From contig JAKVKP010000006.1 in assembly GCA_022484805.1 (NCBI GenBank), positions 1 to 64,000 on the forward strand: a stretch of 64,000 nt of DNA, in the 5' to 3' direction. The notes beneath the pieces are model-generated. The model searched no databases. It was not told where the DNA came from and saw only the letters and a list, made by a program, of their open reading frames with translations. Below, in pieces: positions 51,082-58,418 of the stretch. A program made the position numbers and the translations under genes. Each line of letters opens with the position of its first letter. The stretch's first letter is position 1. The stretch is from Streptococcaceae bacterium. GTDB taxonomy: Bacteria; Bacillota; Bacilli; Lactobacillales; Streptococcaceae.

Positions 51082-51213
51082 GTGAATCAAAAAGAAAAAA
51101 TGGCGGCTTTAATTAAAGAAAAGCAATCTGGCGGTGGCAAGTCAAAACAAATGTCTGCGCCAAAGAATGATCGCAAAAATATGCGTAAGGGTCCCAAAAT
51201 ATTTAATAAATAA
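51082..51213 (+). CDS. Small basic protein of 43 residues
   Basis: Starts at GTG 51082 with AGAGGT upstream; the translation is lysine-rich and ends NMRKGPKIFNK. Similar short lysine-rich proteins ending in KGPKIFNK occur in other Lactobacillales, as I recall, but their function is unknown; the charge suggests binding to nucleic acid. It is followed directly by a terminator and is probably co-transcribed with the DUF1801 gene. Confidence 0.65.
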   Translation: MNQKEKMAALIKEKQSGGGKSKQMSAPKNDRKNMRKGPKIFNK

Positions 51214-51214
51214 T

Positions 51215-51258
51215 AGTATTAGCTTGTACCGTTTGGTATCTGCTAATGCTTTTTTTTT
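51215..51258 (+). terminator. Rho-independent terminator
   Basis: Stem AGTATTAGC/GCTAATGCT with inner pairing TACC/GGTA, followed by eight or more T. It separates the small basic protein gene from the EssC-like operon. Confidence 0.82.
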
Positions 51259-51353
51259 ACAAATATGAATTAGATATGTATTTTTTTAAAATAAATAACG
51301 AAATATAGAGTAGGTGATATTGATATAAATAATGTTTGATAAAGGAATGACTT

Positions 51354-54300
51354 ATGCAGGTTACATTGATTACCACTAGCAGTTTAAGGCAAATGATTTT
51401 GCCCAGTCAAAAAATAGGTAAGTATCTATTATTAACAGACGAGTTTACTGAACGAGAAGCATTGACGATTGAAGGTGACGGGGAATTTTGGTATTTAAAG
51501 CTTCAGTCTAGTCTATGCTTTATTGATACAAAATTACATCTGAAAAATAGTATTTGCCTCACGGAGTTACGTTTATTTGAAATGCTTAATAACCAAAAGG
51601 AATTAATCCATTTATTGGTTGAACCTTTGGCAATTGATCGGTTGAGCTTTAAAAAATATCGAGTGAGATATGGTGCTGAGCTTCAGATTGGTAGAGAATC
51701 AGGTAATCAGATTAAAATTGATTATCCATTTATTTCAAAGAAGCATGCGTTACTATCCTTTACCAAATCTGGTTGGCTATTTGAGGACTGCGCAAGCTTG
51801 AATGGCAGTTATATAAATGGTGAGCGAGTAGTAGCAGGTATTCAGCATTCATTAACGCTTGGCGATATTATTTTTATTATGGGCTTCAAGCTAATTATTG
51901 GGCCTGATTTCATCAGCTTTAACAGCGCCGATCAATTAGTAACCCTGAAAACTGATGACTTGTGTGCCTATGAATTACAGCAGGAAATTGTGAGCTCTGG
52001 AAATTTCTCATTGCAAATTAGAACGGGTTATTTTTATCCCCAGTCTAAATTTTGTCATTCAATTTGTCGGCTTGAGTTAAGCATTGATGCACCACCTCCA
52101 ATACCGCAATCAAATGAACAGCCCTTACTATTTTTAATTGGCCCTGCCTTGACAATGGTCTTTGCTTCAATTAGCACTGGGCTACTTACAATAGGTCAGT
52201 CAATTCAAAATGGTGATCTGCGTTCTTCTCTACCAATCCTAATCATGTCAATTAGTATGCTTTTAGGTAGTCTTCTATGGCCATTAATGGCACAAAAATA
52301 TCGCCAAGGGCTTATAAAAAAGCAAGTCACTTTACGAAAAAATCAATATCATAATTATCTTGACCAAGTCATCAAAGATATTGAATTGGCACGCGAGCAA
52401 CAAAAAATAGCCTTACAACATAATTATCAATCATTGGCACAATTAAGGCAGAATTGGCTTGATTGTCCAACAGATCTTTGGGGTAAGCAAATTCAGCAGC
52501 CAGATTTTTTGAAGGTGAGAGTTGGTATTGGTAATTTGCCAATGGCACTTAAGCTAACTTCGCCAGCTCTCAAGGCCCAGCTCGATACGGATAACTTAGA
52601 GGAAGCGATGTTTCAATTGATAACAGATAATTATCAATTAAAGCAGGTGCCCGTTACAATTTCTTTGACAGATAATTGTTTAACTGGGGTTGTTGGCGAG
52701 AAGACATTGTGTAGCAATTTTGTGATGAGCTTAATTTATCAGCTGGCGTTAAATTATCGTTATGATGAATTAAAAATGATTTTTATTTATGAATCATCAG
52801 ATTATAACTTTGTTCGTTGGCTGCCTCACGTTTGGAGCACGGCAGGCGATTTTCGCTTTCTAGCCACTGATAAAACGACTTTAAAAACGCTAAGCCATCG
52901 CCTAGAACAATTAATTGCCCAGCTTACTCATCCAGAAGGTAGTCATTCTGATCAGTTTCAGTTACCACATTACCTTATTTTTATTTTAAATGATCAGTTG
53001 ATGCTGCCAGAAACTCTGATGAATCAGTTGATTCATCAGCACATAGCTCGGTATTTTAGTATACTTCACTTCTCGGAGTATCAAAATAAGCTATCCCGCT
53101 ATTGTCGCCAGATATTGAAAATTAAAGCTGATGGTGGTGAAATTTGGGCACCAGCTCAATCTAATCAGACTATTCAGAAATTTGATGTTGATTATTTACC
53201 TACTGATTGGCAGTGTCGCCAATTAGCAGTTACTTTATTGAATTTACATTTAAAAATTGAGCAAAATCAAGAGCTGCTACCGCAACGTTTGACTTTTTTA
53301 GCACTTTTCAAGGTTGCCAAAGTTGAACACCTTAATATATTGGAGAGATGGCAAAACCACGCTTTAAGTCATTCAATTGCTACTCCAATTGGCATTAATT
53401 TTCAAGGGCAACCATTAATGTTAGATTTACACGACAAAGCAGATGGTCCACATGGTCTTATTGCAGGTATGACTGGCTCTGGAAAATCGGAATTGATCAT
53501 TACTTATATTTTATCTCTAGCAGTTAACTATCATCCCAACCAAATTGCCTTTGTTTTAATTGATTATAAGGGTGGTGGTCTAGCCAAGGCTTTTCAGGAT
53601 TTACCTCATACGGCGGGGATCATTACCAATTTAGACGGTGCGATGATTTATCGAGCTATGGCTTCAATTGAGAGTGAATTAAGAAGGCGTCAAGAAATAT
53701 TTAATCAGATTAGTCAAGCAATGGGTATCAGTAACCTAGATATTGATTATTATCAATCCTTATTTCGTAATCAAAAGGTTAGCGAGCCATTGCCACATCT
53801 ATTAATTATTTCGGATGAATTTGCTGAGTTAAAAGCCCAACAACCAGAATTTATGAAAAATTTAATTAGTACTGCGCGAATTGGTAGAAGTTTGGGTATT
53901 CATTTAATTTTAGCAACTCAAAAACCAAGTGGTGTGGTGGATGAGCAAATTTGGTCAAATAGTCGTTTTCGAATTGCCTTAAAGGTGCAGGAGCGGGCCG
54001 ATAGCATGGAGATGCTGAGAAGAGTAGAAGCGGCGGAATTAACCGTGTCTGGTCGATTTTATCTACAGGTTGGTTACAATGAACGGTTTGAATTATCGCA
54101 ATCGGCATGGTCTGGTGCAAAGTACAAAGTCAACGCCTCTGAAATTACAGCAATTGAGAAAAAAATCACTGCCATCAATCAAAATGGTCAAACGATTGCT
54201 GAATGGTCGTTAGCGGCTGCTGATAACCAGACTGAGGTTGCACATGTTAAGCAATTGGATGCCATCAAAGCGCATCTCATTTGGCTTGCTAAAACGGAAA

Positions 54301-55160
54301 AAATTGTCTCTTGTTCGCTTTGGTTACCCGAATTAAATCCGATTTTGATTCATGATGAATTATTATTGCTGAGGTCAAAGAAGCCATTCACTGGTGCACT
54401 ACAAATATTGATCGGCCTGTACGATGATCCTAAGCGTCAAGCACAAGAAATTTTAACTTTAACAATGGATTCAACAGGTCATATTGCAATTTTAGGTTCT
54501 GTTGGCAGTGGCAAGGCGATGTTGATTCAAACGATAATTTATGATTTAGCAGTAAGCACGACACCGAGTAATCTCAAATTGTATATCATTGATTTTGCAG
54601 ATGAAATTTTACCTGATTTTAAGTTGTTGCCACATATTAGTGAAATTTTGTATGCATTTGAAGGTGAAAAAATCATTCAATTATTCAAATTACTTTTGGA
54701 TGAATTAAATATGCGAAAACACAAGATGCTTGGGCGTGGTGTTAGCTATCAAACATTTCAAGAAAATGAAGCAATCAGATTACCTGATATTGTGTTAATC
54801 ATTCATCATTTTGCTCAGCTTTATGAGCAAGCATACATTACCGAAAATGAGCTTCTTAGTTTGCTGCGTGAGGGTGCTAAATACGGTATTTATCTAGTTG
54901 TTAGTGGACTTTGTTTGATGGATATTCGTTATTCGTGGCAACAATACTTTCCAAAATATATTGTGCTTCAGATGAATGAAACAAGTGAGTATACCACGAT
55001 TTTTGGAAAAACAGATGGGCTGATACCGGCAAAATACCTTGGGCGCGGTTTAATTAAGCTAGACGAAGTATATGAATTTCAAACGGCAAGCATTGCACAA
55101 ACGGCAATTGAAGGTATCGTAAGGATTAAAAAAATGATTAATTCCCAGAGAAAAAAATAA
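51354..55160 (+). CDS. Short EssC/YukBA-like FHA-FtsK/SpoIIIE ATPase of a type VII secretion-like system
   Basis: 1268 residues, shorter than typical EssC (about 1480). N-terminal region (1-95) and FHA domain (about 100-185; IGRESGNQI, FISKKHALL, CASLNGSYINGERV), two membrane helices (about 257-279 and 292-313), then FtsK domains. The first has an intact Walker A GMTGSGKS (705-712), LIDYKGGGLAKAFQ and Walker B LLIISDEFAEL near 819. The second has a degenerate Walker A GSVGSGKA (1048-1055, Ala in place of Ser/Thr) and LIIHHFAQL in place of an acidic Walker B. A third ATPase domain is absent. In T7SSb this protein is the membrane motor that recruits WXG100-type substrates; no such gene is in the window. 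Confidence 0.88.
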   Translation: MQVTLITTSSLRQMILPSQKIGKYLLLTDEFTEREALTIEGDGEFWYLKLQSSLCFIDTKLHLKNSICLTELRLFEMLNNQKELIHLLVEPLAIDRLSFKKYRVRYGAELQIGRESGNQIKIDYPFISKKHALLSFTKSGWLFEDCASLNGSYINGERVVAGIQHSLTLGDIIFIMGFKLIIGPDFISFNSADQLVTLKTDDLCAYELQQEIVSSGNFSLQIRTGYFYPQSKFCHSICRLELSIDAPPPIPQSNEQPLLFLIGPALTMVFASISTGLLTIGQSIQNGDLRSSLPILIMSISMLLGSLLWPLMAQKYRQGLIKKQVTLRKNQYHNYLDQVIKDIELAREQQKIALQHNYQSLAQLRQNWLDCPTDLWGKQIQQPDFLKVRVGIGNLPMALKLTSPALKAQLDTDNLEEAMFQLITDNYQLKQVPVTISLTDNCLTGVVGEKTLCSNFVMSLIYQLALNYRYDELKMIFIYESSDYNFVRWLPHVWSTAGDFRFLATDKTTLKTLSHRLEQLIAQLTHPEGSHSDQFQLPHYLIFILNDQLMLPETLMNQLIHQHIARYFSILHFSEYQNKLSRYCRQILKIKADGGEIWAPAQSNQTIQKFDVDYLPTDWQCRQLAVTLLNLHLKIEQNQELLPQRLTFLALFKVAKVEHLNILERWQNHALSHSIATPIGINFQGQPLMLDLHDKADGPHGLIAGMTGSGKSELIITYILSLAVNYHPNQIAFVLIDYKGGGLAKAFQDLPHTAGIITNLDGAMIYRAMASIESELRRRQEIFNQISQAMGISNLDIDYYQSLFRNQKVSEPLPHLLIISDEFAELKAQQPEFMKNLISTARIGRSLGIHLILATQKPSGVVDEQIWSNSRFRIALKVQERADSMEMLRRVEAAELTVSGRFYLQVGYNERFELSQSAWSGAKYKVNASEITAIEKKITAINQNGQTIAEWSLAAADNQTEVAHVKQLDAIKAHLIWLAKTEKIVSCSLWLPELNPILIHDELLLLRSKKPFTGALQILIGLYDDPKRQAQEILTLTMDSTGHIAILGSVGSGKAMLIQTIIYDLAVSTTPSNLKLYIIDFADEILPDFKLLPHISEILYAFEGEKIIQLFKLLLDELNMRKHKMLGRGVSYQTFQENEAIRLPDIVLIIHHFAQLYEQAYITENELLSLLREGAKYGIYLVVSGLCLMDIRYSWQQYFPKYIVLQMNETSEYTTIFGKTDGLIPAKYLGRGLIKLDEVYEFQTASIAQTAIEGIVRIKKMINSQRKK

Positions 55161-55233
55161 TCACAGCTTAGTGTCCGAAAGAATGTCTAGAATTAGCTAA
55201 GTAAAAGGTTTTCGAATAATTAAGGAGATCAAT

Positions 55234-55485
55234 ATGATGCACTTGACTAGAGTATTAGTTGAAGTCGTTGTTCCAACAATCAACCAAAGCTTTGATTTAT
55301 ATTTGCCGATTGGTTGTCAGTTAGCAGAATTATTTCCAGAGTTAATCACAGCGATTATTGATTTATCTTCTGGTGTTTTTGTGCCCAATTTTCCTTTAAT
55401 TTACCTATTGGACGAAGAAGTACAACTCAGTTTCAATATGATAATTGATGCACAATTGAATGGTGCAAGATTATTAATAATCTAA
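55234..55485 (+). CDS. EsaB/YukD-like ubiquitin-fold protein
   Basis: An 83-residue protein: RVLVEVVVPTINQSFDLYLPIGCQ resembles the beta-grasp N-terminus of YukD/EsaB, and LDEEVQLSFNMIIDAQLNGARLLII matches the YukD ending with a hydrophobic terminal strand. YukD/EsaB is a regulator or accessory component of T7SSb. Start is at the first of two ATG codons with AAGGAG at good spacing. It lies between the EssC-like ATPase and the phosphatase-like gene, where T7SSb loci usually have it close to EssB. Confidence 0.78.
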   Translation: MMHLTRVLVEVVVPTINQSFDLYLPIGCQLAELFPELITAIIDLSSGVFVPNFPLIYLLDEEVQLSFNMIIDAQLNGARLLII

Positions 55486-55558
55486 TTTTTTGAATTAAAA
55501 TATATGCCGAATGAGGTGGCAGTAGTAATTAAGAAAAATTAAATAATTAGGAGAGTAG

Positions 55559-56308
55559 ATGGCATTAATTGCAAGCATAAAGTCGACAGGCGAAGGAATT
55601 AATCAGAAAAATCAGATGAGCTATTGTTTAAAAATTGCTGAAACACATACAGGTAAGGTGATGATGGCTGTTATAGCTGATGGCTGGACTGAGCAACAAA
55701 GAGGCGCGATTGCCAGTACTTATCTTGTCGAGCGCTTTAGCCATTGGTTTGAGACATATTTGCCGAATTTGAGTCAATTAGGGGCTGATGAATTGATTAA
55801 ATCACAGTGGCAAGACTTGCTCAGGGCAATCAATCAAAAGTTATTGATTTATGGTCAAAATGATGATTTTCCTCTTGCGACGACCATTTCGATTTTATTG
55901 GTTTGCGAGTCAAAGGTTGCTTATCAAATGAGTATCGGCTTTACACCAACGATTAAAATGACAGGTCATGCCTACCAATTTCTTGCTGGAGAAAAACAGC
56001 AACTTGCAATAACCAAAAAAGCGATGATTGCTTCAAATGAACAACTAAAGGACTGTGAATTTCTTGGTCTGAATACCACATTTCAAATGACTTTTAACGT
56101 CTGGACTTTAAGTGAAGCAACCAGTTTTGTTATCTGTTCCAAGCGATTCTATCAGCAAGTCTCCAAGCAAGATTTATTGCTGCTTTTTAAGCCGACTGCG
56201 ATTCAGAATACCGGAGGAATTAATAAAAATTTAGATACATCAATGCTACTTGCGCAAAAAAACTCAGCTGAGGTTGGTCTTGCGATAATTGTCATTTTAT
56301 TTCAGTAG
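55559..56308 (+). CDS. Degenerate PP2C-like protein (probable pseudophosphatase)
   Basis: A 249-residue PP2C-fold protein. The first metal-binding motif survives as VIADGWTEQQRGAIAS (Asp41-Gly42), and FPLATTISILLV matches the TT motif. Where active enzymes have GDSR there is IGFTPT, where they have SDGL there is ICSKRFY, and the terminal DN motif is missing. Three metal-binding aspartates thus appear to be lost, so it is probably inactive and may bind or regulate a partner such as the kinase encoded three bases downstream. Family assignment is by pattern and order of motifs. Confidence 0.72.
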   Translation: MALIASIKSTGEGINQKNQMSYCLKIAETHTGKVMMAVIADGWTEQQRGAIASTYLVERFSHWFETYLPNLSQLGADELIKSQWQDLLRAINQKLLIYGQNDDFPLATTISILLVCESKVAYQMSIGFTPTIKMTGHAYQFLAGEKQQLAITKKAMIASNEQLKDCEFLGLNTTFQMTFNVWTLSEATSFVICSKRFYQQVSKQDLLLLFKPTAIQNTGGINKNLDTSMLLAQKNSAEVGLAIIVILFQ

Positions 56309-56311
56309 GAG

Positions 56312-57937
56312 GTGGAAATAGCGACTTTAATTGATGATCGTTATCAGCTAATTAAACAAATTGGGCAGGGGGGAATGTCAAAGGTATATTTGGCACTTGA
56401 CCGACGGTTAAATAAGGAATGGACGATTAAGGTAATCGATAATCAATTAATTATTAATCAAGCTTTAGCAGAGGCAGAATTAATGAAAAAAATAGATCAT
56501 CATTTATTACCAAGAATTGTAGATGTAATTAATACCCCAAAAAAATTATACATAGTTATGGATTATATCAAAGGAGTTACGTTAAATCGTGTTATTGAGA
56601 GATATGGTTCTCAGTCAGAAAAGCAAGTCATTGATTGGACGCGACAAATTTGTCGAGTTTTACATTATTTACATCAGCAGAATCCACCAATTATCTATTG
56701 CGATTTAAAGCCAGAGAATATCATTTTAAAACAAGATGGGACGATTCGTTTAATTGATTTAGGGATTGCATGTGAAATAGATGTAAAAAATAAAAGCTTG
56801 AATCATTCGTGGGGATCCAAAGCTTTTGCAGCGCCCGAGCAATTTAAAATATCTGATGCAATTGATGAGAGAACAGATGTTTATTGCTTAGGGATTACGA
56901 TGTTGTATTTATTAACGGGTGAAAAGTCTGTTGGAACAGGAAAATTAAGTGATTCAATTTTCAAAGCTGATTTAAAATTAGATGCTGACTTAAATTGGAT
57001 TATTCAAAAAGCCGTTCAAAAAAAACCATTCAGGCGTTATTCAAGTATTTTAGCATTGGCAAAGGATTTAAAGCGATATCAGAGCTTCAAAAGGTACAAA
57101 TTAAATCAGCTACGAGATAAGTGGTTTCGGTTTTGTACGGTTGTCTGCATTGGCTTATTGAGCTTAACTACTGGTGTGCTTAGTCTGAAATATCAATCGA
57201 AAATAACTAATGATCGCTATCAAAATTTTTTAAAGCAAGCCCAAATGACTACTAATTCAACTAAACAATTGATTTTTTATCAACAGGCAATTCAATTACA
57301 GCCCAAAAAGCAATTGGCATATCAAAAACTACTTACATATTATCGGCAGGATGATATTTTCACAGAGAAGGAGATGCTACAATTTACAGAAATGCTACTA
57401 CTTCATAATAATTGTTTGCGACCTATATCTGGCTATGGAGAACTTGCTTTTCAACTTGCGGTTCTATGCTGGTATGATTATGAGCGACCTGATCAACGAA
57501 TAGTAAAGGCTGAATATTGGTTGACAATTGCCAAGCGCTATACGAGAAAAAACAGTGACTTATATTTCAGAATTAGCCAGTATCAACAATTAGCCACTGG
57601 CATAAAAGCGCTTGCCTCACTTGACTTGAACACAAATAGCCCGTATTTATCCTATTGGCAATCATTGACACAGCTACATGATGCTATTTTTAATTTTGCC
57701 TCTGCCGATGTGTGGCATCTTTTTAAGGTGGAGAATTTAATGATTACTAACTTAGAGCAGTACCTGAGTAATTTTAGAAGCAAAGGTATTTCGGCAAGTA
57801 CGCTGATTGCTAGAATTGAAGATATTAGTGTGCATTTAGACGGTTTAGCTATTTCTGATGAGTCAGCGGTTCAAACTAGACAGGCATTAAGAGTGCGGTT
57901 GGATAATATTAAAGAAAAAATATTTTTAATTTATTAA
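56312..57937 (+). CDS. Transmembrane Ser/Thr kinase of the type VII-like operon
   Basis: About 541 residues: Hanks-type kinase (1-268), one membrane segment (about 273-294) and a helical extracellular region (295-541). Kinase motifs look intact: IGQGGMSKVYLALD, Lys40, catalytic Asp131 in YCDLKPEN, Asp149 in DLG, AAPEQF. EssB/YukC of T7SSb has a pseudokinase, one helix and an extracellular domain, so this may be its catalytically competent counterpart (inference). No PASTA repeats. GTG 56312 is the only common start codon nearby, yet it overlaps the Shine-Dalgarno AGGAGG; the true start could be a rare ATA at 56318. Confidence 0.82.
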   Translation: MEIATLIDDRYQLIKQIGQGGMSKVYLALDRRLNKEWTIKVIDNQLIINQALAEAELMKKIDHHLLPRIVDVINTPKKLYIVMDYIKGVTLNRVIERYGSQSEKQVIDWTRQICRVLHYLHQQNPPIIYCDLKPENIILKQDGTIRLIDLGIACEIDVKNKSLNHSWGSKAFAAPEQFKISDAIDERTDVYCLGITMLYLLTGEKSVGTGKLSDSIFKADLKLDADLNWIIQKAVQKKPFRRYSSILALAKDLKRYQSFKRYKLNQLRDKWFRFCTVVCIGLLSLTTGVLSLKYQSKITNDRYQNFLKQAQMTTNSTKQLIFYQQAIQLQPKKQLAYQKLLTYYRQDDIFTEKEMLQFTEMLLLHNNCLRPISGYGELAFQLAVLCWYDYERPDQRIVKAEYWLTIAKRYTRKNSDLYFRISQYQQLATGIKALASLDLNTNSPYLSYWQSLTQLHDAIFNFASADVWHLFKVENLMITNLEQYLSNFRSKGISASTLIARIEDISVHLDGLAISDESAVQTRQALRVRLDNIKEKIFLIY

Positions 57938-57960
57938 AATAATTAGGAGAGGAGCTGGGC

Positions 57961-58389
57961 TTGTTAAAGTATTTAGTAATTTTAATTGTTTTTTCTTTTA
58001 TTCTAGCGAGCATCTGTTTAGGATTGGCAATTTATTTGTTTTTCAAATATCAAATTAATTATATTTTTCAGCGATTAGGCTATTTAAGAAAATTGCAAAG
58101 CATAGTAAATTATTTTCAGCGATGTTTTCAACGAATACAGTTTTTTTTCAGAAAAAATGAGAAAATTTCAATAAATCAGCAAGCTCAGAAATCGCCTAAT
58201 AATCCAGACTCATCAATGAAGCGTTCGGTACTTAAAAATCATCTAGATAAAAACGATTTAGAAATATTATTTCCAAACACGATTCAGGAGTCACCTGCTG
58301 ATCAGACGGTTCAATTAGCAAAAAAATATTTTATAATTAGTAAAACGGTTATTTCACTAGCTTCAAATGAAAAAATTGATAATAATTAA
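57961..58389 (+). CDS. Small membrane protein of unknown function in the type VII-like operon
   Basis: 142 residues beginning at TTG 57961 with AGGAGAGGAGC upstream. One N-terminal membrane helix (about 4-28), then a basic amphipathic stretch (FQRLGYLRKLQSIVNYFQRC), a polar region (NQQAQKSPNNPDSSMKRS) and a tail with hydrophobic residues (KYFIISKTVISLAS). No family recognised. It is the last gene of the operon, a position and size that could fit an EssA-like accessory subunit or a specificity component, but there is no sequence support for either. Confidence 0.6.
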   Translation: MLKYLVILIVFSFILASICLGLAIYLFFKYQINYIFQRLGYLRKLQSIVNYFQRCFQRIQFFFRKNEKISINQQAQKSPNNPDSSMKRSVLKNHLDKNDLEILFPNTIQESPADQTVQLAKKYFIISKTVISLASNEKIDNN

Positions 58390-58418
58390 AAAGAGCAGTT
58401 TTTAAAACCGCTCTTTTT
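58388..58418. terminator. Bidirectional terminator
   Basis: AAAAAGAGC/GCTCTTTTT with inner GTTTT/AAAAC pairing, A tract on one side and T tract on the other. It serves the type VII-like operon and the convergent hydrolase gene. Confidence 0.88.

Follow-up and report, generated by a model that had tools for sequence, protein, structure and literature searches.

Can a type VII secretion system (T7SS) motor that lacks its last ATPase domain, and whose WXG100 partners are not encoded beside it, still serve in export, and under what kind of control? The question is raised by five genes at positions 51354-58389 of a 64,000-nucleotide stretch of DNA from a Streptococcaceae bacterium (assembly GCA_022484805.1, contig JAKVKP010000006.1, positions 1 to 64,000), referred to here as the window. 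A sequence-only reading had described these genes as a compact type VII-like operon with no WXG100 gene nearby and had proposed a reduced or variant secretion system, or a signalling complex built from T7SS parts, with kinase, phosphatase-like protein and ATPase as one phosphorylation-controlled machine. A variant secretion system and control by phosphorylation both fit the evidence presented below. A set of T7SSb parts without substrates does not: the gene set is derived from T7SSe, and an island encoding a WXG100 pair and a lipase cassette is located on another contig of the same genome. We consider it probable that the operon and this island together form an antibacterial secretion system derived from T7SSe, which is divided between two loci, its exported half having moved to the second, and which has a simplified phospho-switch.

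The operon and its motor ATPase

In Bacillota, the T7SSe comprises an EssC with an FHA domain, two WXG100 proteins, the ubiquitin-like TseB, the transmembrane kinase TseD and the PPM phosphatase TseF, together with the small transmembrane proteins TseH and TseK, the Ig-like TseI and TseJ, which combines DUF6382 with an FHA domain; a reverse lipase has been reported at one T7SSe locus (Garrett, Higginson and Palmer 2024, PMC11217815). For comparison, a DUF6382 search led to a locus in the class Bacilli (G716) with nearly the whole T7SSe set, which was found near-identical in G939 and compact in G1039; the three were classed as T7SSe by comparing their gene content with that published for the system, and not through accessions. 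The compact set of G1039 (L190:10386-18511) has six genes, for EssC, TseB, two WXG100 proteins, kinase and PP2C, with intact enzyme motifs, and no TseI, TseJ or TseK was seen in the 20 kb taken. For most DUF6382 loci, the 20 kb taken contained no EssC, and these loci were used solely for kinase, PP2C and TseJ motifs.

The window operon consists of five co-directional open reading frames, each uninterrupted, and the two hairpin terminators that the sequence-only reading had placed around them were both found. Its features are:

51218-51257 (about), + strand: hairpin and T-run terminator upstream of the operon (fold of -17.3 kcal/mol over 51205-51265)
51354-55160, + strand: EssC, TseC-like motor ATPase of 1268 residues with FHA domain, two transmembrane segments, D1 and D2, and no D3
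51687-51872, + strand: FHA domain of EssC with its phosphothreonine-binding residues kept (G113-R114, S128, H131, N150-G151)
53451-53501, + strand: intact D1 Walker A (GMTGSGKSE)
54495-54518, + strand: degenerate D2 Walker A, GSGKA against GSGKT in T7SSe-type references
55234-55485, + strand: TseB-like ubiquitin-fold protein of the EsaB/YukD family, 83 residues
55559-56308, + strand: TseF-like PP2C, 249 residues, catalytically dead by sequence
56312-57937, + strand: TseD-like transmembrane Ser/Thr kinase with helical extracellular domain, 541 residues
56696-56704, + strand: YCD at the HRD-equivalent position of the kinase, Arg lost (YRD or FRD in most references)
57131-57187, + strand: transmembrane helix of the kinase, residues 274-292, from hydropathy
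57961-58389, + strand: TseK-like single-transmembrane protein, 142 residues, named from its position next to the kinase, its transmembrane helix and its tail motif
58306-58308, + strand: Thr116 in DQTVQL, a candidate target of the kinase and ligand of the FHA domain, aligned with a Thr in all four proteins compared
58388-58418, no strand assigned: hairpin terminator with T-run, 3′ of the operon

Just 5′ of the first terminator, a small open reading frame with a GTG start (51082-51213, + strand) encodes a very basic protein of 43 residues (...GKSKQMSAPKNDRKNMRKGPKIFNK). It is strongly conserved in a second species (L042:4326-4457), and it is probably a small protein without relation to the operon.

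In the profile scan EssC reached 910 bits against TIGR03928 (cut-off 778) and its FHA domain 49 bits against PF00498. It is 40% identical to the 1546-residue EssC of G716 over residues 3-1248 (903 bits). In a tree of 31 rows, which held no reference T7SSd or T7SSj EssCs, the EssCs of the window, of the second species and of G716, G939 and G1039 formed one clade (support of 100 in the Shimodaira-Hasegawa-like approximate likelihood ratio test, SH-aLRT), apart from T7SSb; the EssC of Agathobacter was a long branch whose position in this tree is unsure. Across 335 genomes from its GTDB family, an EssC of this type was confined to this genus, and the source genome encodes no EssC besides the window protein. 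It terminates 20 residues past the last aligned residue of D2 (20-23 in the two species that carry it) versus 286 in the references. The additional 286 residues of the reference proteins are D3, and the window EssC is naturally without it. No remnant of D3 was found 3′ of EssC, where the sole local matches were brief overlaps at the boundary, formed by the end of EssC. In D1, the Walker A, Walker B and adjacent motifs are intact.

The kinase, PP2C and TseB-like proteins match the same T7SSe-type loci as EssC. The 83-residue protein is weak by Pfam (15.7 bits against YukD PF08817, cut-off 27) but aligns along its entire length, at 32% identity, with an 83-residue protein that is linked to EssC in G716 (E 3e-9); its predicted structure (AlphaFold, two-sequence alignment) had a mean predicted local distance difference test score (pLDDT) of 48.7, too poor to use.

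Conservation was followed in two congeners of the source genome (G000, 89.7% complete), Enterococcus sp. MMGLQ5-1 (G001) and a third genome (G002, 83% complete). All five genes are intact and syntenic in G001, between shared flanks (a DUF1801 gene upstream; an alpha/beta hydrolase gene and lplA downstream). Identities in operon order are 64, 62, 52, 55 and 43%, lower than those of neighbouring genes. The ratio of nonsynonymous to synonymous substitution rates (dN/dS) was 0.13-0.42 where dS could be estimated, with no stop codon; these values are rough, since dS between the two genomes approaches saturation and has no defined value for the 83-residue gene. In G002, neither the operon nor the island was detected. 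As to loss in close relatives, which the sequence-only reading had named as an argument against its proposal, the set is kept in one relative and was not found in the other, less complete one.

A second locus with the WXG100 pair and a lipase

The sequence-only reading had noted that WXG100, EssA and EsaA genes were absent nearby, and among the open reading frames of the 49.5-61 kb stretch no EsxA, EssA, EssB or EsaA gene was found (the whole genome was not searched with EssB, EssA and EsaA profiles). The absence is local as far as WXG100 is concerned. The search for distant genes that it had suggested uncovered four WXG100-type genes on another contig of the source genome (C7:39696-43201); a search for LXG genes there gave none. 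The island has the order WXG-A, WXG-B, a 230-residue transmembrane protein, a 460-residue Mbeg1-like lipase and two WXG-like partners, WXG-C and WXG-D, and it is also present in G001, so that both species have operon and island together.

WXG-A (TseA2-like) and WXG-B (TseA-like) pair as reciprocal best matches with the two WXG proteins linked to EssC in G716, G939 and G1039, with scores of 59-71 and 49-63 bits, respectively, against about 34 bits or less to the EsxA of T7SSb. The C-terminal YxxxE motif of TseA-type proteins is kept in WXG-B and likewise in its counterparts. Between the two species, WXG-A and WXG-B are 81-82% identical, and their dN/dS is roughly 0.04. The EssC locus itself, in both G716 and G939, includes the WXG pair together with a lipoprotein and an Mbeg1-type lipase. 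The lipase of the island (59.9 bits to Mbeg1, GHSKG motif) has a C-terminus that appears helical from the sequence and probably attacks membranes; the 230-residue, immunity-like protein appears to be anchored by a transmembrane segment, with no clear lipobox in G001. No promoter motif shared by operon and island was found. Directly 3′ of the island, both species have a gene for a LURP-one-related protein (PF04525; L010:13397-13900).

A candidate phospho-switch and the alternatives

The central part of the operon encodes what looks like a writer and an eraser of phosphothreonine, of which the eraser appears to be inactive. The PP2C-like protein scored 23.5 bits against PP2C_2, slightly below the cut-off. 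Its metal-site motifs (NQD, CDGMGG, GDSR, SDG and DN), kept in the T7SSe-type references, are replaced in both species; of the second motif only D42-G43 is left in the window protein, and in G001 not even this. It is, as judged by these residues, a catalytically dead homologue of TseF, which confirms the pseudophosphatase of the sequence-only reading. The kinase matched PF00069 with 158 bits and TseD-type kinases with 32-33% identity across the transmembrane segment and ectodomain, and it keeps the catalytic residues K40, E54, D131, K133, N136 and D149. To this extent the earlier label of an active-looking kinase stands; it needs the qualification that the kinase has lost the Arg of HRD and the DT motif of its activation loop, and DFG reads DLG. 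Its predicted structure (AlphaFold, two-sequence alignment) was too poor to use (mean pLDDT 42.6). The kinase is also 33% identical, over 90% of its length, to one whose gene lies next to a T7SSe-like set on an Agathobacter record. The Agathobacter rectalis 'plasmid' record NZ_CP143948.1 (L133, L134) includes rplA, rplK, nusG, secE and rpmG and may be a piece of chromosome; its large T7SSe-like island has genes for a TNT-related toxin and Imm59.

A possible target lies in the last gene. The 142-residue protein has one transmembrane segment (residues 6-24) and a long, disordered-looking tail, which is probably cytoplasmic. Its identity to TseK is 18-20%; a single small transmembrane protein at the operon fits TseK, although TseH and TseK are indistinguishable here, and no second one was found at the locus. 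The tail contains one copy, DQTVQL, of a motif, (D/E)-(E/G)-T-(T/V)-x-L, that is repeated in the TseK tails of G716, G939 and Agathobacter (5, 4 and 2 copies, against 0.2-0.7 expected from shuffles). The same motif recurs immediately 5′ of the FHA domain in most TseJ proteins (L154, L189, L134 and other DUF6382 loci) and looks like a general phospho-motif of kinase-type T7SSs. FHA domains often prefer a given residue at position +3 from the phosphothreonine, which is Leu in this motif.

These elements suggest a mechanism. The transmembrane kinase would use its helical ectodomain to sense the cell surface and would phosphorylate the cytoplasmic tail of the TseK-like protein, with Thr116 as the candidate site. 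The FHA domain of EssC, the only Pfam-detectable one in G000 and in G001, would bind this phosphothreonine, so that kinase, TseK and motor assemble, and D1 would drive lipase and WXG pair out of the cell, to act against rival bacteria. A one-way switch is likely, because the PP2C eraser appears dead and the kinase appears to have lost control through its activation loop; the PP2C may act as a scaffold. By sequence, the system is eroded, as D3, the metal motifs of PP2C, the HRD Arg and DT of the kinase and the FHA adaptor are gone.

Several points weigh against this reading. The variant is carried by only two genomes, and the source genome is incomplete. No DUF6382 protein that could be TseJ was found in G000, and no FHA protein besides EssC in G000 or G001. 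TseI, a large Ig-like envelope protein, gave no match in either genome in a search made without a positive control. The TseK assignment is drawn from position, topology and motif. In addition, a motor that naturally lacks D3 may not secrete in the known way, because the S. aureus EssC without D3 assembles with its partners, does not secrete and is dominant-negative, and mutations in the D2 Walker motif impair assembly (PMC9436818). The absence of D3, the degenerate D2 Walker A, the non-secreting S. aureus protein (PMC9436818) and the unmatched TseI would all suit a signalling complex, in which T7SS parts are kept as an envelope-stress sensor and EssC acts as an FHA reader only. Against such a complex stand the intact Walker A, Walker B and neighbouring motifs of D1, and the WXG pair and lipase cassette, which persist under strong constraint in the same genomes although G000 has no other EssC; we regard it as rather unlikely. 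The losses in D2, D3, PP2C and TseJ, the identity below that of neighbouring genes and the failure to detect the operon in G002 could instead be those of a decaying remnant headed for loss. However, five intact, syntenic frames at near-saturated dS, with the dN/dS range given above and no stop codon, and the selective keeping of catalytic kinase and FHA residues make such a decay quite improbable.

The sequence-only reading had also considered that the operon might be the decayed copy of a canonical T7SSb encoded elsewhere. No canonical T7SSb was found in the source genome, which showed a single EssC and no LXG gene. G001 does have one, EsxA-EssA-EsaB-EssB-EssC (EssC of 1493 residues) with an LXG gene nearby, but this EssC and that of the window share only 33% identity, so the operon is not a decayed copy of it; in G002 only the canonical type was seen. 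Far from the canonical locus, a further EsxA gene of nearly identical sequence is present in G001, and the gene after it encodes an 88-residue membrane protein (L101:9113-9675). A related explanation, a reduced T7SSb in which an active kinase replaced EssB, could draw on the EssB-like architecture of the kinase (cytoplasmic kinase fold, one transmembrane segment, helical ectodomain) and on identities of EssC to T7SSb EssCs of up to 35-37%. It is contradicted by the clustering of EssC with T7SSe-type loci and by a PP2C, TseK and WXG pair that belong to the T7SSe set. The kinase as an EssB homologue was itself rejected, with no significant profile match, an hhalign probability of 2% and kinase catalytic residues kept, and we consider a reduced T7SSb very improbable.

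The two-locus secretion system thus remains the preferred reading. The only candidate exporter of WXG-A and WXG-B in G000 is the D3-less EssC; this lineage either can do without D3 or uses the complex for something else, and we favour secretion with fair confidence. In a lineage whose sole EssC lacks D3, but whose WXG pair is strongly constrained, what D3 does can be tested directly. Whether phosphothreonine binding drives type VII assembly was left open by the 2024 survey (PMC11217815), and a system that kept kinase and FHA reader, lost phosphatase activity and adaptor and has a single FHA domain in the genome offers a small setting for this question. The case also shows that a T7SS can have its core genes at one locus and its substrate genes at another, so that neighbourhood surveys will miss T7SS parts.

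Comparison with known systems

With T7SSe, the system shares an FHA-EssC with a phosphothreonine site, TseB, TseD, a homologue of the PP2C TseF, a small transmembrane protein and the TseA/TseA2 WXG pair. It differs in having an EssC without D3, a PP2C that appears dead, a kinase without the RD arginine and activation-loop DT, and a WXG pair, orthologous to that of T7SSe, on another contig rather than at the EssC locus. The lack of TseJ keeps the operon from being a strict member of the published T7SSe. T7SSj and T7SSd are also kinase-containing systems with an FHA-EssC, and TsjD also has a TPR-like ectodomain; T7SSj differs by having no TsxH and by having TsxI and TsxJ, and T7SSd by having no ubiquitin-like protein (PMC11217815), distinctions that set them apart only provisionally, as the tree had none of their reference EssCs.

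The last four genes of the island follow the order of the antibacterial lipase cassette TilA-TslA-TlaA1-TlaA2 (PMC10730906), with an immunity protein, a lipase with a helical C-terminus and two small helical partners. The likeness is one of gene order, not of sequence comparison with TslA, and the island differs in its linkage to T7SSe-type WXG genes and in its immunity-like protein, which appears to be transmembrane-anchored.

Canonical T7SSb (Yuk of B. subtilis, Ess of S. aureus) has in common with the operon the EssC family, with TIGR03928 above cut-off, an EsaB-like protein and a transmembrane protein with a kinase fold; EssA, EssB and EsaA genes are lacking at the operon locus. In T7SSb, EssB is a pseudokinase and the FHA domain has no phosphothreonine site (PMC9600267), whereas here both the kinase catalytic residues and the phosphothreonine site are kept. 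It is conceivable, though we hold it doubtful, that a D3-less motor that still secretes and a one-way phospho-switch, with an active unregulated kinase, an intact FHA reader, a dead phosphatase and no adaptor, represent an intermediate between the phospho-regulated T7SSe type and the phosphorylation-independent contact of pseudokinase and FHA domain in T7SSb.

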